Below the pieces are notes generated by a model. It was not told the DNA's origin and did not search any database. It worked only from the letters and a program-made list of their open reading frames with translations. 64,000 nucleotides of DNA from Bacteroidota bacterium (GTDB taxonomy: Bacteria > Bacteroidota > Bacteroidia > UKL13-3): the NCBI GenBank assembly GCA_040388375.1, contig JAZKBU010000007.1, positions 150,403 through 214,402 on the forward strand, given 5' to 3'. Every line of letters starts with the position of its first letter. The stretch's first letter is position 1. Shown here in pieces: positions 1 through 23,948 of the stretch. The translations under genes were made by a program, and so were the position numbers.

Positions 1-92
1 TATTTGGTAGAGTAGTCATTTAAACAAATATCGCTTCTCCCTTAACGGTATAGAATACATATTTGCAATGCACATTTTCCAAAACCATAACT

Positions 93-446
93 ATCTGGTA
101 ACTCCTTTATGGGCATTTTGAAAAAATTATAGGCATAAAGGAACTCCTTTATTGACATTTCAGAAAAATTATGGGCATCGGGACTCCATTTTTGACATTT
201 AGGCAGCAAAAAAGGTATATTTATACTCCTATATACCCTTAAAAAGTGAATGAATGCCTATAAAGGAACTCCTTTATAGGTATTTCAACATGAAAATAGC
301 AATAAAGGAGTTCCTTTATGCCTTGGGAACGTGATTCCCAGGGTACATAGGAGTTCCTTTCCTGACATTTTAACACGAAAATAGGGGTGTAGTAACTCCT
401 TTATACCTTGGGAACGTGAATACATGCCTATATAGGAGTTGTTTTG
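93..446. repeat. Array of nine imperfect palindromes at ~42 bp period
   Basis: Nine copies of a palindrome with core GGAACTCC or its complement GGAGTTCC are centred at about 101.5, 143.5, 183.5, 225.5, 268.5, 310.5, 353.5, 395.5 and 438.5. Intervals are 40-43 bp, i.e. four helical turns. Best copies are ATAAAGGAACTCCTTTAT (135-152), the 24-bp palindrome at 257-280 (11-bp arms, AC centre) and 302-319. The third and fourth copies are degenerate. The stretches between copies also resemble each other (TGACATTT at 152-159, 193-200 and 363-370; CCTTGGGAACGTGA at 321-334 and 406-419), so this is a degenerate tandem repeat with a palindromic core. It lies beyond the 3' end of the gene at 504-833. Function unknown. 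Confidence 0.85.
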
Positions 447-503
447 TTAAACTTATAATGTATGAAAAAGTAATGAGTAGGTTGTAGCCAGCAGCACTGC
501 TTA

Positions 504-833
504 CTAAATTTGAGTTGCCAATGCCCAGGTTGTGAATAAAACGGAAAGAATTATAATAAAAAGAAATTCTAAACGATTGATTCTTTTAATTTTTGTCTTG
601 TCGTAAAAGGCTGAATTTTTAAAAAAGAAATCTAAAACTTTTGAGATAAGGAAAACCAATAAACCAAGTATTAAACAAAAGCTTAAACGATATAAATAAA
701 CCTCCCAAAAATTTTCTTTTAACATTAATTCCTGTTGTTCCTTTCCACCTAAAGAAAAAACAGAAGCCCAGAAAATAATGGCAACTTCAGCAAGCAAGAA
801 AATAATTCTTAATAGGTAATAGAGGCTTTTCAA
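504..833 (-). CDS. Small three-helix membrane protein, unknown
   Basis: A 109-residue protein that I do not recognise. Three hydrophobic segments are visible at about residues 5-27, 44-68 and 87-106. Between the second and third is a short basic stretch (KTKIKRINR), which by the positive-inside rule would face the cytoplasm. There is no enzymatic motif and no cleavable signal peptide. It follows the coiled-coil membrane protein at 917-1765 on the same strand with an 83-bp gap, so the two could be co-transcribed. Immediately downstream lies the palindrome array. A small membrane accessory protein is all that can be said; a chance ORF is unlikely given the coherent membrane topology. Confidence 0.55.
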   Translation of the reverse strand: MKSLYYLLRIIFLLAEVAIIFWASVFSLGGKEQQELMLKENFWEVYLYRLSFCLILGLLVFLISKVLDFFFKNSAFYDKTKIKRINRLEFLFIIILSVLFTTWALATQI

Positions 834-6957: not shown

Positions 6958-9060
6958 GTGAAATTTTTAGCGCATATATTAGTAGGGCTCATTAGTTTAC
7001 AGTATGCCGTAGCAGGTACTATTGTAACCAGTGTAAGTACGCTTCCTTCTTTTGGAAACGTTTATCCGTATAACAGTTCAACCAGTTTAAAATATACCGT
7101 TTCGGGTACAAGCTTAACAGCTCCCTTAATTATAAGCAGCAGCCCTGCCTTTGAGGTTTCATTAACCTACGGGTATGGTTATACAGGTTCCATTACCATT
7201 AACCCAACTTCAGGTACGGTAAGCAGCACTGTTGTTTACGTAAGATTCAGTCCTTCTGTAGTAGCCACTTATGCCAGTGCTAGTAATAGTGTAACCAATG
7301 CAAGTGTAGGCTCTACAACCGTAAGTGTAACGGTAAGCGGTACCTGTATAGCTACCACTGTTCCCAGTGGTGCATCTGCTTATTACAATACAATTGGTAA
7401 CGTAAGAGGAGCAGGTTTAAAAACAGCTTTGTATGGTAAAGTATCGGTAGGTACTACAGCCGTTGGTTATACGCCCGGTGTATGGAATGCTTATGCCACT
7501 ACCGATGTGCAACCCAACGGAAAAGTATGGGATATATACAGCGCCCGTTTCGATGTGAACTCGCCCTATGAATATACCCTGAGCACCAACCAGTGTGGTA
7601 ATTATTCGCTTGAAGGCGATTGCTACAACAGGGAACATTCGTTTCCGCAGAGTTGGTTTAACTCAAGCACCCCAATGGTAAGCGAGTTAAACCATGTTTT
7701 TGCTTCGGACGGAAAAGTAAACGGTATGCGCAATAATTACCCTTATGGTAATGTAACTACTGCTACTTATACCAGCGCTTATGGAGGTAAATTAGGTACC
7801 AGCACTGCCAATAATTTTGGTTATACAGGTACTGTTTTTGAACCTATTGATGAATATAAAGGCGACTTAGCCCGTGGTTATTTTTTTATGGCTACCCGCT
7901 ACGAAAACTTAATTGCCGGCTGGAGCACCAATGGCAATGCAGGCGATATATTAGCAGGTAATAGTTTTCCGGCATTTTTACCGTGGCAGTTAAGCTTGCT
8001 TTTAAGCTGGAACAATTTAGACCCCGTAAGCGATAAAGAAATAAAACGCAACAATGCAGTAGCCGCATTACAAGGAAACAGAAACCCGTTTATTGATAGT
8101 CCGCAATACGTGCAAAGAATATGGGGTGGGAGCATAGCGCCTGAACCAACCATAAGCAGCAGTAATTTAACTTATACCCACAACGGAACCAATACTGCTA
8201 ATTTATATTGGAAAAGCGGTAATGGAAACAGACGTATAGTTATAGCCAAAGCAGGTAGTGCCGTTAATTCATTCCCTACCGATACCTTTGCTTATACCGC
8301 CAATGGTGCTTTTGCCAGTGGCACTAATTTAGGTAATAGCTGTTACGTGGTTTATAACGGAACAGGCAGTTCATGTACCATTACCGGGCTTAACAATATT
8401 ACCAATTATTATATGGCTGTTATTGAATACAATGGTATTTCCAATATTACAAACTATAATACCACCACCTTTTTAGCCAGTGCACAGGTTACCTTACCTG
8501 TTAAGTGGTTAGGCTTTCAGGCTAGTTTGTATACCGATGAATCAGTACTATTAAACTGGCAAACAGCTACCGAACAAAACAATGCTTGGTTTGAAACAGA
8601 ACGCAGTACAGATATGGTTAATTGGTTAAGCGTTGATAAACAAAAAGGAGCAGGCACCAGCAACCGCATTAATACTTACAATAGCATAGATAATATAGCA
8701 GCTTTAACCAATACCGAAAACATTTATTACCGCATTAAGCAAACAGATGTAAATGGTAATTACACCTATAGCGATGTAAAACAGGTTACTATTAACAACA
8801 ATCAAAATATAACAGTACAAGTTAGTCCTAATCCATTCCATAACACTCTTGGTTTAAACATAACATTGCCTACACCGCAAACCGTGAAAATTGCTATTAA
8901 AAACGGACTGGGTATAACCGTAGCTATATTTGAAAAAGAAGTAAACACCGACAACCAATACATTCAGATGGACGACTTACAAAGTTTACCAAGTGGTCTG
9001 TATATGGTACAAATTGAACATAGCTTTGGTACGCAAATAGTGAAATGCGTTAAAAATTAA
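6958..9060 (+). CDS. Secreted endonuclease I family nuclease with T9SS sorting domain
   Basis: A 700-residue exported nuclease. The GTG start gives a clean signal peptide (MKFLAHILVGLISLQYAVAG). Residues about 20-130 are a beta-sandwich, Ig-like region rich in Ser/Thr. The catalytic part (~130-395) is endonuclease I (EndA/BsnI type), with the NREHSFPQSWF and HVFASDGKVNGMRNNYPYG motifs holding the His and metal-binding residues. Further beta-rich regions follow, and the last ~80 residues are a type IX sorting domain (VSPNPF ... LPSGLYMVQI). It should degrade extracellular DNA or RNA. TACTTTTG, a good -7 element, lies at 6946-6953, only four bases before the GTG, so the message may be leaderless. 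Confidence 0.92.
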   Translation: MKFLAHILVGLISLQYAVAGTIVTSVSTLPSFGNVYPYNSSTSLKYTVSGTSLTAPLIISSSPAFEVSLTYGYGYTGSITINPTSGTVSSTVVYVRFSPSVVATYASASNSVTNASVGSTTVSVTVSGTCIATTVPSGASAYYNTIGNVRGAGLKTALYGKVSVGTTAVGYTPGVWNAYATTDVQPNGKVWDIYSARFDVNSPYEYTLSTNQCGNYSLEGDCYNREHSFPQSWFNSSTPMVSELNHVFASDGKVNGMRNNYPYGNVTTATYTSAYGGKLGTSTANNFGYTGTVFEPIDEYKGDLARGYFFMATRYENLIAGWSTNGNAGDILAGNSFPAFLPWQLSLLLSWNNLDPVSDKEIKRNNAVAALQGNRNPFIDSPQYVQRIWGGSIAPEPTISSSNLTYTHNGTNTANLYWKSGNGNRRIVIAKAGSAVNSFPTDTFAYTANGAFASGTNLGNSCYVVYNGTGSSCTITGLNNITNYYMAVIEYNGISNITNYNTTTFLASAQVTLPVKWLGFQASLYTDESVLLNWQTATEQNNAWFETERSTDMVNWLSVDKQKGAGTSNRINTYNSIDNIAALTNTENIYYRIKQTDVNGNYTYSDVKQVTINNNQNITVQVSPNPFHNTLGLNITLPTPQTVKIAIKNGLGITVAIFEKEVNTDNQYIQMDDLQSLPSGLYMVQIEHSFGTQIVKCVKN

Positions 9061-9125: not shown

Positions 9126-9234
9126 TTTACCAAAACCATACCAGTCATATCGAGCATAAATTCTTTCTTTTAGCAAACTTTGGATTTATTAATATGCGCT
9201 ATTTTTATAAATTGCACCCAAGCATATTATAACC

Positions 9235-23375: not shown

Positions 23376-23948
23376 ATGTCAGTAAAAATCAGATTACAGC
23401 GTCACGGACGCAAACAAGCACCTTACTACCACATAGTTGTGGCAGATTCTCGTGCACCCAGAGACGGTAAGTTTATTGAACTAATTGGTTCATACAAACC
23501 ACAAACCGTTCCTGCAACCATTGAATTAAACAACGAAAGAGCTGTTAAATGGCTTGAGAACGGAGCGCAACCAACAGATACTGTTCGTGCTATCCTTTCT
23601 TACAAAGGTGTTTTATTCCAACGCCACTTAGATGCTGGTGTTCGTAAAGGCGCTTTAACTCAAGAGCAAGCTGATGCTAAATTAGCTAAATGGCTTGATG
23701 AGAAAAATGCTAAAGTAGAAGCACACATTTCAAAAGAAAAATCAAAAGCAATAGATTCAAGTTCTGCTCGCTTAGCTGCTGAAACAAAAGCAAATGCTGC
23801 TCGTATTGCAAAACTTGCTGAAAAACAAGCTGCTTTAGATGCTGCTGCTAACCCAGTTGCTGAAGAAGAAGTAGTTGTAAGTGAAGAAGCTGCTCCTGCT
23901 GCCGAAGAAACAACAGAAGCAACTGAAACAGAAACTCCAGCAGAATAA
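23376..23948 (+). CDS. rpsP: 30S ribosomal protein S16 with long C-terminal extension
   Basis: Residues 1-~85 are the ribosomal protein S16 ([38 protein letters not shown] region), needed for 30S assembly. The protein is 190 residues, about twice the E. coli size: after the core there is a Lys/Ala-rich helix (~100-150) and then an Ala/Glu-rich acidic tail ending TETETPAE. Such tails are usual in this phylum, and their role is unknown. Codon use differs visibly from the neighbours (GCT-rich alanines, few rare codons), as expected for a highly expressed gene. rimM follows 8 bp later, forming the usual rpsP-rimM pair; trmD and rplS are not next to it. Confidence 0.97.

Follow-up and report, generated by a model that had tools for sequence, protein, structure and literature searches.

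A nine-unit array of dyads phased at ~42 bp is an orphan member of an array family associated with genes for an uncharacterised basic protein

The locus and its array

The window, meaning the whole 64-kb stretch of DNA analysed here (C7:150403-214402), belongs to a Bacteroidota-type genome of 3.97 Mb in 34 contigs. Close to its start, two convergent genes are separated by an intergenic gap. The upstream gene encodes a 258-aa protein and ends at window position 10, and the gene on the other side encodes a 109-aa protein that has no relation to the array-linked protein described below. Array A sits between them (Table 1). The initial annotation had placed nine units here, at steps of 42, 40, 42, 43, 42, 43, 42 and 43 bp, and both the nine centres and the steps are borne out. 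The tandem structure is well above chance. Identity at a lag of 85 bp, 0.67 over 126 bp, is the highest of all lags in the 64-kb window, and AAAGGARYTCCTTT at 0-1 mismatch has four matches within 137-360 and one more in the rest of the 64 kb. The phase of the units fits 10.5 bp per helical turn (vector length 0.85), with 10.6 nearly as good (0.81). A lag-42 signal at window position 23800 was rejected, as it lies within coding sequence.

Table 1. Coordinates of the arrays, their units and neighbouring features. Positions written with two dots are those of the window; C and L denote contigs and extracted loci.
Feature	Location	Strand	Description
Array A	92..448	.	contig C7; orphan; nine 40-43 bp units, intergenic, in non-coding gap 11-503
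Unit 1 dyad, centre 101.5	92..111	+	half site GGTAACTCC; outer boundary common to array B
Unit 2 dyad, centre 143.5	134..153	+	strong, AAAGGA-AC-TCCTTT
Unit 3, centre 183.5	174..193	+	decayed; 2-bp deletion, 40-bp step from unit 2
Unit 4, centre 225.5	216..235	+	outer arms GGTATAT/ATATACC pair; core lost
Unit 5 dyad, centre 268.5	258..279	+	perfect 11-bp arms, CCTATAAAGGA-AC-TCCTTTATAGG
Unit 6 dyad, centre 310.5	301..320	+	strong, ATAAAGGA-GT-TCCTTTAT
Second palindrome type, centre 332	322..342	+	GGGAACGTGATTCCC core 325-339; half period between units 6 and 7
Unit 7 dyad, centre 353.5	344..363	+	ATAGGA-GT-TCCTTT
Unit 8, centre 395.5	386..405	+	half site
Unit 9, centre 438.5	429..448	+	half site
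Flanking gene, 109-aa membrane-type protein	504..833	-	convergent with upstream 258-aa gene
Array B	C4:429958-430200		directly upstream of linked-gene paralogue
Array C	C5:346440-346800		orphan
Array D	C3:45900-46120		directly upstream of second linked-gene paralogue
Array at L111 (Chloroflexi)	637-825		gene 838/889-1251
Array at L173 (Nostoc sp. UHCC 0926 plasmid NZ_CP117772.1)	2025-2170		gene 2252-2653
GTTGTTGGTGTTCTTCACCAACAAC repeat	L010:5690-5735		
GTTGTTGGTGTTCTTCACCAACAAC repeat	L058 ~2007-2037, 2125-2158, 7666-7711, 8439-8471, 9022-9048, 9150-9180		

The units are less uniform than had been described. A GGA-AC/GT-TCC core was said to be common to all nine, but both halves are found only in the units centred at 143.5, 268.5, 310.5 and 353.5, and the remaining units have one half or less. 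Near-perfect dyads with arms of 8-11 bp do number three, as claimed (units 2, 5 and 6). The proposed flip of the centre in later copies holds for the dyad centre itself, which is AC or GT, but whole units are not inverted and the orientation of the spacer is constant. The single 40-bp step reflects a 2-bp deletion. The alternation of 42 and 43 bp is not noise: the 43-bp units hold a second, palindrome-type spacer, to which their length is due, and one such spacer (centre 332) falls at the midpoint of units 6 and 7. The second half of the array accordingly reads as 85-bp double units.

Related arrays in the same genome

Array A, array C and a 27-unit model, each used to search the genome, recovered three further arrays and no others, so that it contains four arrays of one family: A, B, C and D. 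Nine genomes of the same genus gave no BLAST counterpart of array A. When 40 relatives, phages and plasmids were searched by BLAST with array A, nothing real appeared outside its own genome; one match, in G023, is a chance AT-rich match. Applied to 395 genomes of the class, the 27-unit sequence-only model (R1) gave three weak matches elsewhere, none of them in an array, and Rfam returned nothing above threshold. Scans for exact patterns in genome and viral contigs yielded chance or coding matches; the exceptions were two unrelated arrays with 21/42-bp units, one in Treponema (L107) and one in Chloroflexi (L111).

Two kinds of unit make up the family. The B-type unit consists of ATAAAGGA-GT-TCCTTTAT and an AT-rich spacer, and the D-type unit resembles TAGGTAA-GT-TTACCTA with a GGGAAGC/GCTTCCC spacer. 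Array A is mostly B-type, although its later part has the second of these spacers, and array C contains B-type and D-type units together. Arrays B and D have no significant mutual similarity by blastn, and both have periods of 42-42.5 bp; their 800-bp flanks are 80% identical, and this identity ends at the array boundary. The genes linked to B and D are paralogues encoding proteins of 238 and 241 aa that are 82% identical. Neither a linked gene nor a degenerate copy of one was found beside arrays A and C in the window or in L009 and L011. Array A belongs to the phased-array family as an orphan, with no array-linked gene nearby.

Two further observations concern this genome. Array C lies directly 5' of a gene for an MqsR-like toxin and a gene for an MqsA-like antitoxin with a SocA/Panacea domain (L011:5916-7274). 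A perfect hairpin repeat, GTTGTTGGTGTTCTTCACCAACAAC, which looks like a REP or terminator element, occurs in several places in 20 kb of the genome and is absent from the 64-kb window.

The array-linked protein and the arrays of its homologues

The array-linked protein is uncharacterised, basic (pI 7.8-9.4 in the nine proteins checked) and about 230-240 aa long. It has no match in Pfam, NCBIfam, PADLOC, PHROGs or the PDB, and neither a recognisable DNA-binding domain nor a transposase or nuclease signature was detected in it. Homologues, about 30-38% identical, are sporadic, occurring in 6 of 396 genomes across the phylum (this genome included) and in 15 of 400 genomes of one large genus, presumably Flavobacterium. 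None was found in phages, plasmids or viral contigs.

At the homologue loci, a tandem array lies at approximately -550 to -80 of the gene, with a period of 42 bp, less often 41 or 43, or of 85 bp per two units. Gene-linked arrays comprise 3-7 units and lie 75-250 bp upstream of the gene. An array was scored wherever identity reached at least 0.60 over 84 bp at a period of 41-43 bp or double that. By this test, 23 of 26 loci (the two from this genome included) have an upstream array; the corresponding counts are 0 of 26 for the stretches downstream and 1 of 31 for control loci. Two of the failures have a period of 42, namely L146 (0.54) and L166 (0.51; a copy with an internal stop), and the third, L165 (G1361:C6), is a truncated homologue with a different repeat of period ~74-75 (and 87). 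When the 22 near-complete proteins are grouped into clusters at 70% identity, 12 of the 14 clusters have a passing array. In the gene-linked arrays, most or all of the six reading frames are closed by stops, and no consistent Bacteroidota-type promoter site was found in the gap between array and gene.

How are the arrays of different loci related? For each pair of loci, the consensus units were matched circularly and the best match was taken as unit similarity. It ranges from 0.74 to 0.98 for protein pairs that are 84-98% identical; for pairs below 70% identity it is 0.43 versus 0.42 for shuffled units, meaning that the units are unrelated. The spacing of 41-43 bp is conserved and the letters of the array are not. 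Such a fall in unit similarity with protein identity is expected if the sites track a binding protein. The constraint on spacing, and with it the phased nucleoprotein array that had been suggested from array A, gains support well outside the window, where 41-43 bp is kept while the sequences become unrelated.

Dyad symmetry

The initial annotation held that the palindrome had been preserved as the array grew. Between the two sub-families of this genome the arms do covary (own pairing 106 versus 90.6 permuted, P=0.005), and 15 non-redundant gene-linked arrays together show an excess of dyads over column-shuffled units (Fisher P=1.7e-5). However, the excess is not significant in each array, with weak dyads at L141, L145, L154 and L161, and covariation is absent within either sub-family (78 versus 78.6; 28 versus 26.0). 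This last result indicates that individual dyads in array A are decaying without compensation. Two properties had been proposed to betray a decaying minisatellite, arm changes without compensation and spacing that is not kept in close relatives; the former is seen within the sub-families, but even distant relatives retain the spacing.

The same annotation had considered that the array might act as RNA, in the form of a string of hairpins. The folding data do not favour this alternative. Most arrays fold above column-shuffled units, on both strands and with no G-U preference, and fold z-scores are alike on the two strands. Whichever strand is considered, the dyads contain fewer mismatches of the G-U type than expected (GT 10 versus 27, AC 22 versus 39). 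Equal folding of the strands and the lack of G-U enrichment are expected of a two-fold symmetric DNA site over an RNA hairpin. These arguments are indirect, and an RNA reading therefore retains a substantial share.

Discussion

Why is an array found where there is no gene for it to serve? We propose, tentatively and with slightly less than even confidence, that the home of this array family is just upstream of the uncharacterised basic-protein gene, and that the cognate protein binds the phased dyads cooperatively and controls that gene. Dyad-symmetric sites would recur every four turns of the helix (42 bp), one to a unit, and in many cases another dyad would lie at the midpoint (~21 bp). Dimers of the cognate array-linked protein would bind these dyads and, being placed on one face of the DNA, could assemble into a cooperative nucleoprotein structure that controls the linked gene, a form of autoregulation. 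Arrays A and C, which have neither gene nor remnant beside them, may be extra binding sites acting in trans or relics of loci that have lost the gene. Orphans of one array type (L163) number zero in four other genomes, which slightly favours a relic or a genome-specific spread for array A; what support there is for action in trans by orphan arrays comes from their own genome. A search of the open-access literature on 42-bp arrays in Bacteroidota returned nothing relevant. Taken together, the results suggest that a protein and its DNA array form a system not described before, and speak against a stray minisatellite.

Could the arrays instead function as RNA in a type III toxin-antitoxin-like system? 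The array would then be transcribed into a tandem 42-nt repeat RNA that inhibits the downstream toxin, in the manner of ToxI/ToxN, and the orphans would be solitary antitoxin RNAs. The layout of 3-7 tandem repeats upstream of a single small gene matches such a system, as do the sporadic distribution, the two paralogues per genome with different arrays, the joint change of array and protein, and the basic character of the proteins. Set against this, a simple scan for a terminator-like hairpin with a T-run between array and gene found none at any of 19 loci, folding shows neither a G-U preference nor a strand bias, no toxin family in Pfam, NCBIfam or PADLOC matches the protein, and periods of 41, 42 and 43 bp together with 85-bp doubles resemble helical phasing. 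We regard this explanation as unlikely, though it deserves serious attention.

It is improbable that the arrays are REP-like dispersed repeats, copied or moved by the linked protein or by another enzyme, with A and C as products of dispersal. The presence of four related arrays in one genome, two of them without a gene, would fit dispersal, as would the outer boundary common to A and B and the mixture of B-type and D-type units in C. Yet the genome holds just four arrays, the L163 type lacks orphans in four other genomes, the protein carries no transposase or nuclease signature, and gene-linked arrays are tandem and lie upstream only rather than flanking the gene. An ordinary minisatellite, a functionless repeat grown by slippage and decaying in place, has a poorer prospect still. 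Partly decayed units in array A, one with a 2-bp deletion, and uncompensated arm changes within sub-families are what it would leave, and for orphan A alone this reading is possible. For the gene-linked arrays it is strongly disfavoured: neutral slippage gives no shared period with unrelated sequences in 12 of 14 protein clusters, and downstream arrays are absent. Finally, a coding repeat, in which 42 bp represents 14 codons of a repeated peptide with two heptads per unit, suits array B, in which one frame runs without a stop through six units (89 aa), but is rejected as very improbable indeed, because the frame is broken in A, C and D by 40-/43-bp units and stops, most or all frames of the other arrays are interrupted by stops, and some arrays have a period of 41 or 43.

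A similar arrangement was encountered outside the phylum. In a Chloroflexi MAG (L111), the scan for half sites spaced at 42 bp matched a small-protein gene apparently unrelated to the array-linked one. Its product belongs to a second small protein family, present in Chloroflexi and Cyanobacteria, with the C-terminus LGLKKKSxRKRP and no Pfam match. In this family, palindromic tandem arrays with units of 21 bp (and 42 bp) end ~65-80 bp 5' of the start codon; the homologue on the Nostoc plasmid NZ_CP117772.1 is preceded by a palindromic array of 21-bp units that ends ~80 bp before the start. A shared design at two helical turns in this second family is suggestive, two loci being too few for a claim. 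In a Treponema MAG (L107:7495-7840), 21/42-bp units with GAGCTC-type cores form an intergenic array 3' of a gene for a transporter permease, and the apparent heptad frame contains stops.

There may be an undescribed class of two-part modules, each a small basic protein gene and a preceding dyad array, in which only the four- or two-turn spacing is kept and the letters turn over with the protein. Such a class, perhaps general across bacteria, is a conjecture that we put at somewhat below even. A period fixed at four helical turns throughout the phylum, with the sequence left free, is direct comparative evidence for selection on the geometry of the DNA and not on its letters. The tie between the arrays and an unannotated protein family also supplies a test case, with one gene, one array and many natural pairs. 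The system could prove to be a centromere-like site, a self-regulating nucleoprotein of a new kind or a fourth family of toxin-antitoxin systems resembling type III. Arrays of this kind are easily overlooked as minisatellites.

Comparison with known systems

Two classes of tandem repeat were considered and rejected. In the present arrays the whole 42-bp unit repeats, spacer included, and there are no unique spacers as in a CRISPR array. A neutral minisatellite (VNTR) does not describe repeats whose context and fixed period are conserved with one protein family at 23 of 26 loci. REP/RAYT systems combine palindromic repeats linked to a single-copy gene with orphan copies. Unlike these, the arrays described here are tandem, phased and upstream only, and the linked protein has no transposase-family match, including to the Y1 (HUH) transposases linked to REP/RAYT repeats.

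TAACTGA heptamer repeats are intergenic repeats of Beggiatoaceae and of some Bacteroidetes and Cyanobacteria, and they resemble our arrays in being intergenic direct repeats 5' of start codons in overlapping phyla (PMC4679880). They have a fixed 7-nt unit and are associated with many genes, whereas the 42-bp units here are variable and tied to one protein family. Type III toxin-antitoxin loci (ToxIN, CptIN, TenpIN) have tandem repeats 5' of one small gene, a layout that is found here, and a terminator between array and gene is a criterion for them (PMC8860590). Our arrays differ from these in that they lack the terminator and have a DNA-like symmetry of both strands; the linked protein has no match to the ToxN, CptN or TenpN families in Pfam, NCBIfam or PADLOC.

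The sopC site of the F plasmid (parS-F) consists of twelve repeats of 43 bp, of which most contain a dyad of 16 bp; bound by ParB/SopB, it is an established precedent for the binding proposed here (PMC6238139, PMC9178275). The likeness lies in tandem repeats of ~43 bp (~four helical turns), in a short dyad that forms one DNA site per unit, and in a multi-site nucleoprotein complex (PMC6238139, PMC9178275), binding being a proposal in the present case. Tandem dyad repeats of this length are found here, with a period of 41-43 bp and a dyad excess overall, not at every locus. However, sopC lies downstream of sopAB, binds ParB/SopB and has a ParA partner, whereas the arrays described here stand upstream of a lone gene, are chromosomal and vary freely in sequence between loci. 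The linked protein does not match ParB, the loci read showed no NTPase partner, and the neighbouring genes differ between loci. The arrays are not members of the sopC family; they are structurally reminiscent of it.
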